DNA from: Deltaproteobacteria bacterium
Lineage (GTDB): Bacteria > Desulfobacterota > Desulfobaccia > Desulfobaccales > 0-14-0-80-60-11
Reading direction: 5' to 3'
Assembly: GCA_021813445.1 (NCBI GenBank)
Contig: JAKAKP010000147.1
Span: forward strand, 1-64,000
DNA: 64,000 bases
Positions 15,856-61,403 of this stretch are shown piece after piece. The position numbers were made by a program, and so were the translations under genes. The notes below the pieces were generated by a model. The model was not told the DNA's origin. It did no database searches and was given only the letters and a program-made list of their open reading frames with translations. Positions within the stretch are counted from its first letter, which is position 1. The number at the start of each line of letters is the position of its first letter.

Positions 15856-17097
15856 TCACCTTTGCCGAACCGTTATCTTAACTCCATCTTCTTGGAAAAA
15901 CGTATTTCGATCCGGGATTATCTCATAATACCAAATGGCAAGAAATAGGTTGGCGTTCTCCGTTTCTTTAGCAAACCTTTCGGGAGTGCGAGACTCATAA
16001 TGATAGACCACGCTCTTGGGACTGTAAACCACTTTATAACCTTTCTCTCTTATCCTGAAACAAAGATCCAGGTCTTCAATGCCGTTTAGATACCTTTCGT
16101 CAAATAATCCCGCCTCAAAAAACACCTTCTTCTTAATCAACACGCAAGCGGCGGTTACTGCTTGGAATTCTCTCTCCTTATTCACCGCCGGGTGGTCTTG
16201 AGGAAAATTCCGATAGATATGGTAAACTTTTCTGTCATCATCAAATACTACTCCTGCATGTTGAATGGAGCCATCAGGATATAACAACTTGGCCCCCACC
16301 ACTGCCGTCTTTTCATCCTTTTGGGCAGTGCCGGCCAGTTCCAACAGCCATCCGGGCAGGACCTTGGTGTCATTGTTAAGAAAGACCAGGTACTTCCCCC
16401 GGGCGGCAAGTGCCCCTTGATTGCACGCTTTGGCAAAACCGAGATTCACGGGATTGGTCAGGACCCGGAGACGTCCCAGGGCTTCCTCCTGCTGCAGGAA
16501 CGCGGCGGTGCCGTCGCTGGAGCCGTTGTCCACCATAATTATTTCATCAGATATCTCCGGGGAAGCTTGCTGATAAATGGAGGCCAGGCAATCCCTAGTA
16601 AGCTTCTGGTTGTTGAATACGGGAATGATAATGGAAACCTCGATCTGGCTTTCTGCTTCCGGGACGGCCGCCTCAACTGGCGGCAATTCCCGGGGTGCGG
16701 ACCGCGTCTCGGAGATTGCCGCCTGGAAGAGATTTTCCAGTTGCCTGACCGAGTCTTCCCAGGAGAACTTCTGAGCCTGTTTCAGTCCCATGGAGATTAA
16801 CTGCTGCCGCAACTCCGGTTCGCTGATGAGATCGATCAAGGCTGCGGCCAATGCGTTCGGATTTTCCCGGGGGCAGCTCAGAACCGTTTCCGAGGGCAGG
16901 GCATAGTCCGCATTCACGCCGGAGTCGATACTCACCACCGGTATGCCGCAGGCCATGGCTTCCGGGGCTAGATTGCCCTGCCCCGCCCACCAGTTCCCGG
17001 CAATAAAAGCCTCCAAAGAGCATAAATATCTTTGTAGTTGGGCCTGATCGGCGCAAATCACCAATTCATCGCCTGCCCCCCGAAAAAAGATCCTTAT
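15856..17097 (-). pseudogene. 5'-truncated glycosyltransferase (GT4 end fused to GT2)
   Basis: The readable frame has two parts. The first about 125 residues are the C-terminal half of a GT4-type glycosyltransferase (NLAPEAMACGIPVVSIDSG, then the helix with KFSWEDSVRQLENLF). From about residue 140 follows a GT2 domain (VSIIIPVFNNQKLTRDCLAS, VDNGSSDGT, FLNNDTKVLPGWL with the DxD-like NDT, and the acceptor-side GIEDLDLCFRIREKGYKVV). The frame opens at 17097, exactly where IS3-like sequence begins, so the N-terminal GT4 half is lost. A GTG at 17064 could still start a 402-residue product. Such fusions act in surface polysaccharide synthesis. Confidence 0.75.
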
Positions 17098-17099
17098 GT

Positions 17100-17229
17100 C
17101 TTGTTAGAGTGGTGGATCAAGGGAGGCAGGGAAATGGGCAGGAAGCGTCATACCCTGGAGCAGATCATTGGGAAGCTGCGGGAAGCTAAGTTTGCCCTGG
17201 ACCTAAGCCAGACAACAGAAGGAGCATAG
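17100..17229 (+). mobile_element. IS3-family insertion sequence remnant (orfA start)
   Basis: After a probable IS end (around 17098-17128) an ATG at 17133 starts MGRKRHTLEQIIGKLREAKF, the N-terminus of an IS3-family OrfA transposase, which dissolves into unrelated residues and stops at 17229. No OrfB and no second inverted end are visible. It abuts the truncated glycosyltransferase and is the likely agent of that truncation. Confidence 0.65.
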
Positions 17230-17433: not shown

Positions 17434-17760
17434 TTATGGATGGGCTTCTTGGGGCAGGCGAGCCAGGATTGCTTGATAGACTTCGCCGGCAACGCCACGG
17501 AATTGCCTGGCTTCCTCTAGAGAAGGGGCCTCAGCCTCTCCAGGGTAGCGAAACTCCCAGGCAAATACGGTCAAGTCCCTGGCGGGGTTCAGAACTTCTT
17601 TCAGAGTTGGGTCAACGGCCTCGCAGGTGGAGGCCAGTTCATCAAGATCGTGGGTTTTGCGAAATACCCGGTCATGAGCGGTCAGAAATCCCTTCATCGA
17701 TTTCTCGGCAGCCTGCTGGCAATGAAAAAGCAAGTCTTCAATAAAGGGCGGGGATGCAGC
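17434..17760 (-). pseudogene. 5'-truncated HEPN-domain protein
   Basis: The minus-strand frame ending at 17434 carries about 108 residues of a HEPN domain: FIEDLLFHCQQAAEKSMKGF, FRKTHDLDELASTCEAVDPT, FAWEFRYPGEAEAPS and a final helix EVYQAILARLP. The usual start, with a preceding helix, is missing; upstream of about 17760 the frame runs into sequence that codes on the other strand. HEPN proteins of this length usually pair with a small nucleotidyltransferase in toxin-antitoxin modules; none is present here. Confidence 0.65.
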
Positions 17761-17766
17761 CAGGTT

Positions 17767-17862
17767 AACCCCGGATTGAAAAGAGCTGAAGCTGGGGTGA
17801 AGAAAAGTGAAGCTGAACTGCGCATTGCCAAACAGTACCCCAATCCGACCTATCAAAGCCCC
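17767..17862 (+). pseudogene. TolC-family fragment
   Basis: The plus-strand frame reads NPGLKRAEAGVKKSEAELRI then AKQYPNPTYQSP, the repeat signature of outer-membrane efflux proteins (compare KQYPDLHLG in the intact TolC gene at 32036-33454). Only about 32 codons remain, wedged between the HEPN fragment and the redoxin fragment. Confidence 0.5.
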
Positions 17863-17866
17863 CTGC

Positions 17867-18217
17867 ATGGTAGTGGAGCAGATGAACAACACCTGACCGT
17901 ATTGTATGGCACAGGCTCCTGTGCTAAACGAGGTGTGCAACCTGGCTGGCAAAGACCCGGCTCTCAAAGGCAAGCTGAAGTTCATGGGAGTGGGCAAGGG
18001 TAATGATGATAAGGCGATGAAAATGTGGAAGACCTTCTACAAGGTGCCTTTCCCCATGATTGCCGACCCCAACAGCAAGTTTGCCGAGGCCTTAAATTTT
18101 TCCAATTATCCGGTGACGATGGTTCTGGATAAAACCCGCAAGATCGTCTGGGTCCATGTGGGGGCCTTCGATAACGCCCAGGAGGTCCTGAAAGGCATCA
18201 AGGCCGCCGTAAAATAA
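17867..18217 (+). CDS. Thioredoxin-like redoxin, 5'-truncated, candidate selenoprotein (UxxC)
   Basis: From ATG 17867 the frame reads MVVEQMNNT, then TGA (17894-17896), then PYCMAQAPVLNEV and 100 more codons to the stop. In TlpA/AhpC-type redoxins this place holds a CxxC redox motif after a beta strand, so the UGA sits exactly at the first Cys: U-P-Y-C. The rest is a normal redoxin (KLKFMGVGKGNDDKAMKMW, FPMIADPNSKFAEAL, the cis-Pro NYPVTMVLD and GAFDNAQEVLKGIKA). A hairpin with a G-starting loop lies ten bases after the UGA. If UGA is not recoded, only the 103-residue part from ATG 17906 could be made, without the redox pair. The usual signal peptide and first strand are absent, cut off by the TolC fragment. 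Confidence 0.6.
17907..17926 (+). promoter_or_regulatory. SECIS-like hairpin after redoxin UGA
   Basis: UGGCACAG (17907-17914) pairs with CUGUGCUA (17919-17926), eight pairs including one G-U, closing the loop GCUC. Ten bases separate it from the UGA. Bacterial SECIS elements are short stems inside the coding region just after UGA with a G early in the apical loop, so spacing and loop fit. This is a reading by eye, without an energy calculation. Confidence 0.5.
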
Positions 18218-18553: not shown

Positions 18554-18937
18554 ATGAAACCAAGGCTGTTGATTGTGATTTTGGTAGGGGCTTTGAGTCT
18601 CGTTTACGGACCGGTGGCGGCCCAAATGCACGGCGGCGGGGGCATGATGGGGTCCGGCGGCCAGCACATGATGGGACAGGGCATGATGAACAACATGGGC
18701 ATGATGTCCAACATGATGGGTGACATGCACCAGATGATGATGTCCCACAAAATGACCCCGGAACAGCAGCAGCAGATGATGCAGATGATGGGGCAGATGG
18801 GGCAGATGATGCAGCAGATGCAGGGTTCCATGACCCCGCAGATGGAGCAGCAGCAAACCCAGCAGCTTAAAGAGATGCAGCAGCGGCTCCAGCAGATGAA
18901 AAGCCAGGTGCAAAAGCATAAAGCACATCAACACTGA
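18554..18937 (+). CDS. Secreted Met/Gln/His-rich protein, probable copper or silver binder
   Basis: A 127-residue protein with signal peptide (about 1-23, AQ after cleavage) and a mature chain built almost wholly of Met, Gln, Gly and His: MGMMSNMMGDMHQMMMSHKM, then MMGQMGQMMQQMQ and a Gln/Lys helical tail ending in HKAHQH. Such Met-rich periplasmic proteins bind Cu(I) or Ag(I) through thioethers. Its place upstream of CusB and CusA supports metal chaperone or buffering. The composition is too biased for a firm family call. Confidence 0.75.
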   Translation: MKPRLLIVILVGALSLVYGPVAAQMHGGGGMMGSGGQHMMGQGMMNNMGMMSNMMGDMHQMMMSHKMTPEQQQQMMQMMGQMGQMMQQMQGSMTPQMEQQQTQQLKEMQQRLQQMKSQVQKHKAHQH

Positions 18938-19226
18938 TCCGCACATCCAACCAGGGGCTTTAGGCGCAGTGCCCCAATAAGTCTCAAGATCCAGGCGGCG
19001 GGCATCTCTCCTGGGGCGTTATCCGCGCCGACGGATAGCGCCTCAACTCAGGAGGCGCAGGGAGGAACCGGCCAGCAATCGATCCTTGGCCCTGATTTGC
19101 GGCACAATGTGGGAGTGCTGGCCGGTATGATGCGGGACATCCATTTCTTAATAATTTTGAAGAAAATCGGGCTGAATTGGAATGGCTGGTGGGCCAGGAA
19201 TTGCCGCGTCCGCCGGAGGTCAGGAA

Positions 19227-20633
19227 ATGAATATCCGCCGCTTTTTACCGGGTCTGATTTTAGGTCTGGTCATCCTGATTTTTGCTGCTGGTCTGCTCTA
19301 TTGGCGGGGTTACCGTCTGATGCAGCACACCACCGCTGCCGGTCCTTCACCCCCTGCACCCGAAGCCAAAGGCCGCAAAATCAAGTATTGGGTTTCGCCC
19401 ATGAACCCAAACTATATCTCGAATAAACCCGGCAAGGACGCCATGGGCATGGAATTGAAGCCGGTCTACGAGGGTGAGGAAGGGGCAGTTAAGCACCCGG
19501 GCGCCATCGCGGTGGACCCCCAGACCATGCAGTCCATGGGGGTGCAAACCGCGAAGGTGGAGGTGCGGCCCCTGGCCCGGCCCATCCGGGCCGTGGGCAA
19601 GGTAAACTATGATGAGACGCAGTTGAACGTGGTGAATACCAAAGTGAACGGCTGGGTAACCCGCCTGTACCTTAAAATTACGGGCGAATTGGTGAAAAAA
19701 GGCCAGAAGCTTTTGAGTATTTACAGCCGGGAATTGGTGCCGGCCCAAAGGGAATATCTTTTGGCCTTGAAAAATCTGCAAACCATCGGCAAGAGCCCCT
19801 TTCCGGAACTGGCGGCAGGGGCTCGCAGCCTGGCTGCCGGCTCCCGCCAGCGCCTGGCATATTTCGATATTACTCCGGCCGAGATCGCGGCCCTGGAAAA
19901 AACCGGCAAGGTGAAAAAGAACCTCTACCTGCTTTCGCCGGTAACGGGCATTGTCACCAAGCGCCTGGTCACCCAGGGCCAGTATGTCATGTCCGGGATG
20001 AGTTTACTGGAAGTGGCCGATCTCACCTACGTCTGGGTGGACGCGGAAATTTACGAATATGAACTCCCCTGGGTGAAGGTGGGGCAGAAGGCCGTCATGA
20101 CCCTGCAATACCTGCCGGGAGAGACCTTCACCGGCAGGATTGAGTATATCTATCCTTACCTCAACGACATCACCCGCACCGCCAAGGTGCGCCTGAGATT
20201 TCCCAACCCCGGCATCAAACTGAAACCGGAAATGTACGCCCAGGTGGAGATCAAGTCGGCTTTGCCCCACCCGGTGGTGGCGGTGCCCCCGGAGGCGGTG
20301 CTGGATTCCGGGGAAAAGCACCTGGTCTTCATCGCCCTGGGAAAAGGGCTGTTCGAACCTCGGGAGATCAAGGTGGGCATGGAAGGAGAAGGCCAATGGC
20401 GGGAAGTGCTTGAGGGCCTTAAAGGAGGAGAAGAGGTGGTCACCTCGGCCCAGTTCCTCCTGGATTCGGAATCGCGCATTCGGGAAGCGGTCAGGAAGAT
20501 GCTGGCCCCCACTCCCATGGCACCTGAAACTGCCCCTGCTCCTTCTTCCGCGGCGCCCCCCACTCCCCCGGCGCCTGGAGCACCACCGCCCAAAAAGCCG
20601 GGCAAATCAATGCCAGGGATGCCGGGAATGTGA
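19227..20633 (+). CDS. cusB: CusB-like RND adaptor with N-terminal heavy-metal-binding segment
   Basis: A 468-residue periplasmic adaptor. I chose ATG 19227 because GGAGGT lies nine bases upstream and a membrane anchor (RRFLPGLILGLVILIFAAGL) follows at once. Residues about 55-85 form a metal-binding-domain variant: YWVSPMNPNYISNKPGKDAM GMELKPVY, with Met in place of the usual Cys residues, which suits Cu(I)/Ag(I). The adaptor core follows (GWVTRLYLKITGELVKKGQK, coiled coil, barrel with TYVWVDAEIYEYELPWVKVG) and a Pro-rich tail ending MPGMPGM. Upstream, 18990-19225 contains disjointed protein-like pieces (e.g. VGVLAGMMRDIHF) that may be a decayed Met-rich gene. CusA follows 46 bases downstream. 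Confidence 0.85.
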   Translation: MNIRRFLPGLILGLVILIFAAGLLYWRGYRLMQHTTAAGPSPPAPEAKGRKIKYWVSPMNPNYISNKPGKDAMGMELKPVYEGEEGAVKHPGAIAVDPQTMQSMGVQTAKVEVRPLARPIRAVGKVNYDETQLNVVNTKVNGWVTRLYLKITGELVKKGQKLLSIYSRELVPAQREYLLALKNLQTIGKSPFPELAAGARSLAAGSRQRLAYFDITPAEIAALEKTGKVKKNLYLLSPVTGIVTKRLVTQGQYVMSGMSLLEVADLTYVWVDAEIYEYELPWVKVGQKAVMTLQYLPGETFTGRIEYIYPYLNDITRTAKVRLRFPNPGIKLKPEMYAQVEIKSALPHPVVAVPPEAVLDSGEKHLVFIALGKGLFEPREIKVGMEGEGQWREVLEGLKGGEEVVTSAQFLLDSESRIREAVRKMLAPTPMAPETAPAPSSAAPPTPPAPGAPPPKKPGKSMPGMPGM

Positions 20634-20679: not shown

Positions 20680-25598
<4,919 letters not shown>

Positions 25599-58435: not shown

Positions 58436-59035
58436 TTAAGGAGCCGCCGCGGTCTGCGGCCGCATCCGCTCTAAGGCCCGGGTCAGCTCCAACAGGACCC
58501 CCAACCCCTGGCGGCATTCCGGACTCCGCATCTGCCAGAGCAGGCCCAGGGGCCCCACCGGTTCGGCCTCCTGCAGACGTGAATTCAGAGCCACATCCGC
58601 CAGCCGGTCCATGAACTGGAGCATCTCTCCGGAGAACAGCTTGCCGAAGATCTTGAAGACCTGCTGTTGTTCCAAGACATCCAACTGGTCGATCATTTTA
58701 GGCACCGCAATTTTCAGGATCGGCTCCATGTCCGCCCACCAGTCGATGAAGTTTTCCAACTGCTCCAAAGCCCAGGAGAGGTACTTCAGGCTGGGGAGAA
58801 GCCTTTTTAAAAGGGCGAAAAAGTCCTCCAACTGGAAGCCGATTTCCACTTCCACCAGTTCTTCCGTCAGCTTCCTGGCCGCGGGGTCCATGAGGATGGA
58901 GAGATCCTTACCCAGATCCGTCAGGGTCTCCCAGGGCCGGGCAAAGACCTCCAACTGCTTTTCCACCCGGGCGACTCCCTCCAGCCTCTCTTCGATGCGG
59001 GCCAGCCGTTCCAGCAGCAGTTCCTCGTTGATCAT
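58436..59035 (-). CDS. DUF1641 protein, partner of SQR-like flavoprotein
   Basis: 199 residues, almost all helical: LLLERLARIEERLEGVARVE, LTDLGKDLSILMDPAARKLT, LEQLENFIDWWADMEPILKI. DUF1641 genes commonly sit beside sulfide:quinone oxidoreductase-like flavoproteins. Here its ATG overlaps the SQR stop (ATGA), so both are made together. Perhaps a membrane-side or assembly partner. Confidence 0.8.
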   Translation of the reverse strand: MINEELLLERLARIEERLEGVARVEKQLEVFARPWETLTDLGKDLSILMDPAARKLTEELVEVEIGFQLEDFFALLKRLLPSLKYLSWALEQLENFIDWWADMEPILKIAVPKMIDQLDVLEQQQVFKIFGKLFSGEMLQFMDRLADVALNSRLQEAEPVGPLGLLWQMRSPECRQGLGVLLELTRALERMRPQTAAAP

Positions 59036-60303
59036 GGCCGCTTCCTCCTGAGGGGCATCTCAATATCCGGCGACAAAATACCCCGCACTTTGCCGGCCAG
59101 CACAAACTGTGTTTCCAGGGGCAGGTGGCTGCCCTTGAGCATCAGGTTGTAATAGACCCACCGGAACATCATCTTGCCGACGTAATTGGCGAAGCTTTCT
59201 TTGAGCAGGTCCATGGGGCCGAGGCCCGGAAAGGGGAATTTACCCGGCAGGGGCTCAATTTTGTAATTGAAGTCGAGAAGGGACCCCTTCTCGTAACCGG
59301 TGACCACCAGTCAGGTGGCGTGGCCATCGTAATCGGGTAAGGGCGGCTGGCCATCGATTTCCCGCTGCAGATTTTTAATGATGGTGTCAGCCTCGTAGTG
59401 GGCCACGGCCCCGGCCTTGGAAGTGGGCACGTTGGCTGCGTCGCCGATGACATAAATATGATCGAAGTTTTTGGCCTTCAAGGTGTGGTGGTCGGTGTCC
59501 ATATATCCCATGGGGTCGCCCATACCGCTGTCGATGATGCACTGGGCCCCGAAATTCGGCGGGATTGCCACCAGGAGGTCGTAGGGCACCTCCTCGCCCC
59601 CGTAAGATTTGATGATCTTCTTCTCCCCCTCCACCTGGGCGATCTGGTAGTTGGTGGTCACCTTGATGTTCTTCTGCTCGCAGATATGCCCCAAAATGCC
59701 GGCGGCCACGGGTTTGGTGAAGGCCGCGCCCAGGGGGGTCACCAGTTCGATCTCAATGTTTTTCCGCACGCCGTTGACGCTGAAATACCAGTCGGCCATG
59801 AACGCGAATTCCAGGGGGGCCACCGGGCATTTGAAGGGCAATTCGGCGATATTGATCACCACCCTGCCCTTATCGAAATATTTCAGTTTGTCGCAGAGGG
59901 CCACTGCGCCCTCCTGGGAATAGAAATTGTGGATGTTCCCCCCCATCCCCTCAGCCATACCCTCCACTTCAGCGGGCATAATGCGGCAGCCGGTGGCGAT
60001 CACCAGCCAATCATAGGGATAGGTGTCCCGCTTGGTCTGCACCTCCTTCTTAGTCGGGTCGATGGCGGTGATGTCATCGAGGACAAAATTTACTCCCGGC
60101 GGGATATACTTGACCTTGGGTTTGACGCAGTCTGCCGCGGTGTAAATGCCGAAGGGGATGAAGAGCCAGCCGGGTTGGTAGTGGTGCTGCCAGTCCCGGT
60201 CGATGATGGTGATGTCCCATTGGGTCTCGGGTAATATTTTGCGCATTTTGCCGGCAATAATGGTGCCGCCGGTGCCGCTGCCCAGAATTACCAATTTTTT
60301 CAT
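59032..60303 (-). CDS. Sulfide:quinone oxidoreductase-like flavoprotein, candidate selenoprotein (Sec331)
   Basis: 423 residues if the internal UGA (59311-59313) is read as selenocysteine. FAD site LVILGSGTGGTIIAGKMRK, second FAD motif VIATGCRIMP (Cys106), Cys159 in PFKCPVAPLEFAFMADWY, and the third FAD motif HIYVIGDAANVPTSKAG. At codon 331 the text reads PLPDYDGHAT, UGA, LVVTGYEKGSLLDFNYKIEP; relatives have DGHANCF at this place, so UGA lands on the redox Cys that pairs with Cys159. Ninety-two codons follow with the normal family end (PLPGKFPFPGLGPMDLLKES, FRWVYYNLMLKG). A SECIS-like hairpin starts 17 bases after UGA. Start chosen at ATG 60303. It should oxidise sulfide or a related sulfur species and reduce quinone at the membrane. 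Confidence 0.75.
59274..59293 (-). promoter_or_regulatory. SECIS-like hairpin after the SQR UGA
   Basis: In the transcript CGAGAAGG pairs perfectly with CCUUCUCG around the loop GGUC. It starts 17 bases and its loop 25 bases after the UGA, within the distance used by bacterial SECIS elements; the loop begins GGU, as in formate dehydrogenase SECIS. Confidence 0.65.
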
Positions 60304-60332
60304 GACCCTGGCCTTCCTTCTGTCCTGAGAGT

Positions 60333-61403
60333 TCAAAGTTCAAGGTTTGAAGTGCAAAGTTCACCAATAAAACATTGGGGGTCCGGGGCCAGAAAATCCG
60401 GGTGGCCCCGGGCCTGGGAATAGGCATAGGCAATGGCCCGGCAGCCCCGGCACTGGGCCCAGCGGCCGCACGAGCCGCAACCTTCCGCATACCGGCTCCG
60501 GTCTCTCAGGGCTTCGAGCACCGGCGAGGCAGCCCAGAGTTCCCGCAGGGAATCCCGGCGCACGTTGCCAATGGGCAGGGGCAGCCTGCGGCAAGGGGTG
60601 ACCGTGCCGTCGGGGAGCAGAGTGAGCCCGGAGACCCCGGCAGCGCAGCCGCCCAGGGCAATGGTGCCGGCATCCTGCCCGGGTGCAGGAAAATTCATTT
60701 GGGAGGCCATGGGATCGCCGGTGGTGATTTCCAAACCGGAAATCCGGAGCCCGGCAATCTTCCCGTAGAGTTCCTGAACCTGCGCCGTGCTCAGCATCTG
60801 GTCCAAGAGGGCCAGGCCCCGGCCGGAAGGCACCAGCCGGGAAAAGCCCAGGCGGGGCACCCCCAGGGAGGCCGCCAGGTCCGCCAGGTCGAAGAAGTCC
60901 CCGGCATTCATCTGGGATAAAGTGGTGTTGAGGGAGACCTGGACCCCGGCAGCCAGCAGGTCCCTCACTCCGGCCACCGCGGCGGCAAAGCTGCCCGGCC
61001 CCCGGATGCGGTCATGAGTCCTTTCCAGCCCCTCCAGGGAAACCTGGACGCCGTCCACCCCCAGATCCGTCAACTTCCGGGCGATGTCCCGGGTGATCAA
61101 GGTGCCGTTGGAGAGGATGTAGACTTCGAAGCCCGTGGCCAACATTCGCTCCAGGATGGCAAAGAAATCTTCTCTTAAGAAAGGTTCGCCGCCGGTGACA
61201 TTAAAACTGGGAAGAAATTGAATACCATAAGTATCTTGCCATTCTTGCACCATTTGTGCCGCGGTTTCTATGGTCGCCGCAATTTCCAAAAAAGACATCT
61301 CATCTATTTTCTTATTATCCTGATAACAGTGCTTGCACCGCAAATTACACCGTTCGGTGAGGTGCCATTGAATTAAAAAGTCGAAAGACTGCGCCACCGA
61401 CAT
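60333..61403 (-). CDS. Radical SAM/SPASM peptide maturase
   Basis: 356 residues. SAM-cluster motif TERCNLRCKHCYQDN (CxxxCxxC), FNVTGGEPFLREDFFAILER (GGEP), GVDGVQVSLEGLERTHDRIR, and a C-terminal SPASM part with many Cys: GGCAAGVSGLTLLPDGTVTP, CRRLPLPIGNV, CGSCGRWAQCRGCRAI, final Cys in DPQCFIG. SPASM maturases modify peptides; a short peptide gene with Cys and two UGA codons lies 126 bases upstream on the same strand. The last residues (LCTSNLEL) come from the TTCAAAG repeat. Confidence 0.88.
   Translation of the reverse strand: MSVAQSFDFLIQWHLTERCNLRCKHCYQDNKKIDEMSFLEIAATIETAAQMVQEWQDTYGIQFLPSFNVTGGEPFLREDFFAILERMLATGFEVYILSNGTLITRDIARKLTDLGVDGVQVSLEGLERTHDRIRGPGSFAAAVAGVRDLLAAGVQVSLNTTLSQMNAGDFFDLADLAASLGVPRLGFSRLVPSGRGLALLDQMLSTAQVQELYGKIAGLRISGLEITTGDPMASQMNFPAPGQDAGTIALGGCAAGVSGLTLLPDGTVTPCRRLPLPIGNVRRDSLRELWAASPVLEALRDRSRYAEGCGSCGRWAQCRGCRAIAYAYSQARGHPDFLAPDPQCFIGELCTSNLEL

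Follow-up and report, generated by a model that had tools for sequence, protein, structure and literature searches.

A 5′-truncated gene for a predicted selenocysteine redoxin beside a metal-efflux cluster in a Desulfobaccales genome

Introduction

Redoxin-family and Prx-like selenoproteins with a UxxC motif have already been listed in reviews (PMC13188914, PMC9312934, PMC1794560). The inventory table of PMC13188914 includes a Redoxin family selenoprotein (PF08534, UxxC), and PMC1794560 describes a Prx-like thiol:disulfide oxidoreductase selenoprotein (PF00578, with UxxC or UxxU) in Geobacter, Syntrophus and Desulfotalea.

We analysed a stretch of 64,000 nucleotides (hereafter the window; contig JAKAKP010000147.1 of assembly GCA_021813445.1, positions 1 to 64,000 of the forward strand) from a member of the Desulfobaccales, an anaerobic bacterium. 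A first-pass annotation of this DNA had proposed a redoxin gene with a selenocysteine (Sec) codon that later lost its 5′ end. Homologues with UGA at the same codon, a hairpin, the Sec machinery of the genome and the truncation itself all agree with that proposal. We conclude with high confidence that positions 17852-18217 are what remains, on the 3′ side, of a true Sec redoxin gene whose 5′ part was lost by deletion or rearrangement, and which is most likely a recent pseudogene.

Results

On the forward strand, the frame of the redoxin remnant runs from 17852 to a TAA stop at 18215-18217, giving 121 codons plus the stop (Pfam Redoxin, E 2.5e-12; 74% identity with the intact Sec homologue L024/L028). 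Translated with TGA as Sec, it reads ...IKAPCMVVEQMNNT-U-PYC-MAQAPVLNEV...KAAVK-stop. The UGA lies at 17894-17896 (+) as the first residue of U-P-Y-C, the position of the first cysteine of CxxC, so that the MNNT-UGA-PYC reported earlier at the CxxC place of a thioredoxin-like protein was read correctly. The remnant scored 47.3 bits against Pfam Redoxin (PF08534), above the gathering score of 26.6; it also matched AhpC-TSA, Redoxin being the better match, and an intact relative matched Redoxin at E 3.8e-16. ResA was the closest PDB match of the family profile (E 1.7e-16) and also the best fold match (TM 0.80-0.83 by query length) of a structure predicted for the 116 residues from the ATG at 17867 (pLDDT 94.1). 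Both the models and the ResA matches place CxxC or UxxC at the start of helix 1 of a thioredoxin core. Intact relatives are 183-188 aa long and begin with a stretch that by eye resembles a signal peptide, and the predicted model of an intact relative has a helix at residues 3-21. The remnant thus codes for part of a ResA/TlpA-like redoxin that is predicted to be exported.

Another account of this frame would be that the UGA is an ordinary stop that ends a short upstream ORF, and that the real protein is a non-seleno fragment starting at the ATG at 17906. Mechanical ORF listing yields exactly such an ORF of 103 aa from 17906, and Sec decoding would be unnecessary. However, redoxin homology upstream of the UGA reaches the codons I-K-A-P and continues through the UGA, and because it does so a plain stop was rejected. 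The UGA is also kept at the same codon in five otherwise intact genes, and the ORF from 17906 is without both active-site residues, which bears out the earlier remark that use of this ATG costs the protein its redox centre. We therefore regard the ordinary-stop account as very improbable. With homology flanking the UGA on either side, and with the UGA aligned to Cys or Sec codons, the locus is, as judged from its sequence, a bacterial selenoprotein gene.

We surveyed this codon in relatives of the same class. Among 29 genomes, 27 had a match at E <= 1e-10; there were 31 matches, six of them with one in-frame TGA by alignment. The codon was read in 30 of the 31, the one left out being G011:C35:2165-2710, which is without an in-frame stop. 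The fragment and five intact genes (genomes G018, G016, G004, G019 and G020) had UGA, and the other 24 loci TGC or TGT. The intact Sec homologue in the sister species G018, which the survey assigns to the host's genus, is 74% identical to the remnant. Sec motifs in the class follow T/A-U-P-Y/H-C, and the host's own redoxin paralogue on contig C153 uses Cys. Because sister species still carry intact versions with selenocysteine, we take the reading of the UGA as Sec to be real; the first-pass annotation had called for a look at this codon in intact homologues, and UGA was found there in five genomes besides the fragment. One of the intact Sec redoxins, L034 (G004:C182), contains two UGAs, one predicted to be read as Sec and the second, by homology, as the stop codon.

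In an earlier search of the phylum at E <= 1e-40, all matches fell within this class, in 17 of 395 genomes. A wider search of the 395 genomes at E <= 1e-12 gave a match in 170, and among the matches listed, from which codons were read, at least three more distant genes have UGA at the same site: UPVC in G108 (L087), UPTC in G159 (L088) and UPFC in G331 (L089). The UPFC gene has a 7-bp stem, and the fold of the UPTC gene is less clear. These distant UGA redoxins suggest repeated exchange of Sec and Cys in the wider family.

The UGA is followed by a hairpin of the bacterial SECIS type at 17907-17926 (+). Folding confirmed the arrangement described in the first-pass annotation, with ten bases between the UGA and an 8-bp stem (17907-17914 with 17919-17926) that closes a GCUC loop (17915-17918) beginning 18 nt past the UGA. 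A lower stem of 4 bp (17902-17905 with 17928-17931) extends the structure to 17902-17931. Folded with this lower stem, it reached -16.5 kcal/mol (z -2.25). The limits given for bSECIS elements in PMC13188914 are a loop of 3-9 nt, a stem of 4-16 bp, G in the first two loop positions, a spacing of 16-37 nt and an MFE <= -7.5, and the hairpin lies within them (4 nt, 8 bp, G first, 18 nt, -14.5 kcal/mol). The usual bacterial loop in that source begins with G[G/U], whereas GCUC has the G first without conforming to G[G/U]. Searches with Rfam SECIS models found nothing at gathering score in the window except a tRNA, and at 17850-18000 they returned chance-level matches only and no SECIS family.

Taken alone the hairpin is weak evidence, because a SECIS-like stem of at least 8 bp follows 45 of the 1842 six-frame TGAs in the whole window. 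We therefore compared the same positions among the relatives. A hairpin of 7-8 bp with GCUC was present at all six UGA loci and at none of the 24 Cys relatives, the host's own Cys paralogue included; the eight stem positions were paired 8, 8, 8, 8, 8 and 7 times in the six UGA loci and 1 to 6 times in Cys loci. Together with the fit to the limits in PMC13188914, this is the conservation for which a check of the SECIS model had been proposed. Other stems of 8-9 bp can be drawn in the Cys genes L032 and L045, with loops of 11-14 nt. Cys paralogues that reside with a Sec copy in the same genome (G000, G018, G004) folded no better than shuffles, two of the stretches being offset by one codon. One stem pair is compensatory, changing from A-U in four UGA loci to C-G in two, and is coupled to a Val-to-Gly change; the covariation score was reached by 30 of 500 shuffles, a modest control with six sequences. 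It is the comparative evidence, and not the hairpin alone, that raises this UGA site above chance.

The host genome encodes SelA (598 bits), SelB (364 bits), SelD (371 bits) and a tRNA-Sec with anticodon TCA, the search for the last three covering the host genome only. With this complete machinery, the earlier statement that the genome decodes UGA as Sec is supported. Of the 29 class genomes, 27 have SelA, among them all six UGA carriers; in G004 it is cut at a contig end. The host's SelD (L010, C72:13215-14132) was itself matched through one in-frame TGA. Sec-containing selenophosphate synthetases are known.

The first-pass annotation had counted three UGA sites of this kind in 64 kb. A second is real: the gene for a type III sulfide:quinone reductase at 59035-60336 (-) belongs to the selenoprotein subtype (658.7 bits for NF049943, whose cut-off is 525) and has an in-frame TGA at 59313-59311 on the minus strand, in H-A-T-U, with an 8-bp hairpin. 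It is, after the redoxin, the second genuine Sec gene seen here. Scanning the window by motif, stem and codon usage gave no convincing third site beyond 17894 and 59313. The same annotation had named what would tell against its reading of the redoxin, namely intact relatives with Cys codons and without a conserved hairpin, in a genome without Sec machinery. Most relatives do have Cys (24 of 30 loci), whereas UGA is kept in five intact genes, the hairpin in six of six UGA loci, and the machinery is present.

We then turned to the 5′ side of the remnant. A fragment of a TolC-family outer-membrane efflux gene lies at 17770-17847 (+), with DNA matches in seven other genomes of the class that end at 17846/17847. 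These matches are 79-85% identical to the starts of genes with ORFs of 419-427 codons, and two such ORFs tested against Pfam were OEP (E 1.6e-49 and 7.7e-47). The family of the fragment was settled through these DNA matches to full-length OEP genes, since the TolC-like and transposase-like fragments gave no Pfam match, being too short. The junction is at 17847-17852, where the TolC DNA match ends and the conserved redoxin codons I-K-A-P begin. Intact genes are about 65 residues longer at the N-terminus than the remnant, and with a TolC-family fragment abutting it, the loss of the 5′ end claimed earlier is supported. Since that fragment is joined to the remnant, the signal peptide was lost through either a rearrangement or a misassembly. 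Beside the junction lies a HEPN-domain gene at 17434-17745 (-; Pfam HEPN E 6.6e-16, ORF residues 86-176); its ORF call extends to 17997, and the domain match stops near 17740. A short ORF at 17131-17229 (+), next to a glycosyltransferase ORF with its first start codon at 17064, presumably resembles the start of an IS3-type transposase OrfA, and the stretch around it looks rich in broken genes.

The missing 5′ end had also been suggested as something to look for elsewhere in the genome. A query with the N-terminal 74 residues of an intact relative did not find it in the host's assembly (a draft, 97% complete, in 166 contigs); the sole confident match was the Cys paralogue on C153 (E 4.4e-21), and two further matches were weak (E 0.046 and 0.55). 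The gene is thus truncated, and the part that it lacks was not found elsewhere in this 97% complete draft. Signs of relaxed selection or of further lesions were not seen: dN/dS was 0.22 (G018) and 0.14 (G004), there was no frameshift, the 121 codons contain no stop other than the UGA, and the model keeps the core of the fold. The branch of the remnant carries 20 non-synonymous and 19 synonymous changes. Given these dN/dS values and no other lesion, either the event was recent, or the remnant still functions, or the assembly joined the two genes in error.

The second of these accounts holds that the remnant is still a working gene, which starts at the ATG at 17867 (or 17882) and makes a cytoplasmic selenoredoxin of 116 aa (or 111 aa) with a thioredoxin core. 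A frame interrupted only by the UGA, the low dN/dS (0.14-0.22), the intact hairpin and a 116-residue model with a pLDDT of 94 and a ResA-like core would all fit such a gene. However, no convincing ribosome-binding site was seen by eye at 17867, and the remnant lacks the N-terminal segment that every intact relative has. A good model is also to be expected when relatives are in the alignment, and the 20 and 19 changes fail to separate recent loss from constraint. We consider a working gene unlikely. In the third account, the assembler falsely joined the TolC-family gene to a whole Sec redoxin gene. The genome is a draft in 166 contigs, the join at about 17847-17852 is clean, and the assembly lacks the N-terminal part of a gene that is otherwise free of decay. 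Yet the join sits inside a 73-kb contig, and the TolC fragment occurs only once in the host genome, which leaves no duplicate to mislead an assembler, so that such an error appears quite unlikely. We therefore favour a recent loss. The absence of decay beyond the truncation counts against a pseudogene, unless the loss is very recent; with its start, signal peptide and first ~65 residues removed, the remnant is most likely a recent pseudogene, which has probably lost its function.

Downstream of the remnant, the window carries genes for a methionine-rich protein at 18554-18937 (+; a neighbour kept in the sister species, 72% identity with L059:7594-7238), a CusB-like heavy-metal efflux membrane-fusion protein at 19182-20633 (+; Pfam HlyD_D23 and HMBD, 67% identity in L059) and a CusA-like RND efflux pump at 20695-23814 (+; Pfam ACR_tran E 4.2e-233, 66% identity in L059). 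In G018 the intact Sec redoxin and the genes for the methionine-rich protein, CusB and CusA lie on one strand, and their order matches that in the window. The TolC join and this synteny are most simply explained by a deletion or rearrangement that brought a TolC-family gene up against the redoxin gene in a metal-efflux cluster. The UPHC Sec redoxins (L061, L062 and L063 in G016, G019 and G020) have a universal stress protein gene downstream on the same strand (Pfam Usp). The metal-efflux genes near the redoxin in G018 and the window, together with the universal stress protein genes in G016, G019 and G020, suggest a possible role in stress.

A protein tree built from the 30 loci grouped the UPYC genes (the fragment, G018 and G004) in a supported clade (100/99) apart from the UPHC genes. 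A single clade of the six Sec rows alone was rejected (p-AU 0.003). The best tree put the six Sec rows and five Cys rows of the host's genus in one group, which requires a single gain and a single reversion, but its support was weak (74/76, 80/61). Two independent gains, modelled by constraining the three UPHC rows as a clade, were not rejected (p-AU 0.39). A possible history, which we regard as less likely than not, is that Sec was gained once in the ancestor of the group and reverted to Cys in close relatives of the host, and that a duplicated Sec copy in the metal-efflux cluster is being lost. Changes from Sec to Cys are described as rare in PMC13188914, where the documented cases are mainly FdhA and SelD.

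Discussion

Our analysis suggests how this gene would have worked and how it came to be broken. In bacteria, Sec insertion depends on a hairpin that is bound by SelB, and Sec-tRNA is brought to the UGA. In the intact gene, the hairpin after the UGA would recruit SelB with Sec-tRNA(Sec), and the UGA would be read as Sec. The selenol would then attack a disulfide or an oxidised target, presumably in the cell envelope, with the partner cysteine as the resolving residue. A deletion or rearrangement would have fused the 5′ part of the TolC-family gene with the redoxin near 17847-17852, so that the redoxin lost its start, its signal peptide and its first ~65 residues. The activity is presumably kept by the Cys paralogue on C153.

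A selenoprotein call made by eye, based on an in-frame UGA followed by a hairpin, can therefore hold even in a broken gene, for which plain ORF listing would show just a short frame starting at the ATG at 17906. The survey also provides a class-wide set of five intact Sec redoxins with their Cys relatives. Since the Sec and Cys forms sometimes occur in one genome, the direction of their exchange becomes testable. One Sec branch of this set is tied to a CusBA-type metal-efflux neighbourhood.

We compared the family with known systems. A literature search on this redoxin subfamily returned broader families only, and nothing for 'TUGYCR'. Two members were scored against curated cut-offs and neither passed. 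The nearest solved structures within ResA/TlpA/CcmG (DsbE) are those of ResA, by both sequence and fold, and in our family Sec replaces the first Cys. An intact relative scored below the cut-offs for ResA (NF002854, 36.7 bits against 170) and DsbE (TIGR00385, 30.4 bits against 123.15), and we therefore describe the family as related to ResA and DsbE without filing it as either. NF053656, the TUGYCR-motif thioredoxin-fold (seleno)protein family (redoxin_TUGYCR), is likewise a Sec/Cys redoxin with a T-U-x-Y-C pattern, where ours has T/A-U-P-Y/H-C. The intact relative was below its cut-off as well (14.1 bits against 100), and in a scan of 30 members only one was listed with this seleno-specific family (E 5.7e-4).

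Among the described selenoproteins, the Prx-like protein as described in PMC1794560 resembles the remnant in that the remnant matches AhpC-TSA, has UxxC and comes from the same broad bacterial group. Unlike that protein, the remnant fits Redoxin better, and the family has a ResA-like architecture with an N-terminal hydrophobic stretch. The Redoxin family selenoprotein in the table of PMC13188914 (reference sequence HEU0032618.1) belongs to the same Pfam family and has Sec first in UxxC, a likeness at the level of the Pfam family. UxxC Sec redoxins are thus an already listed kind of selenoprotein, and the gene described here is a further member.
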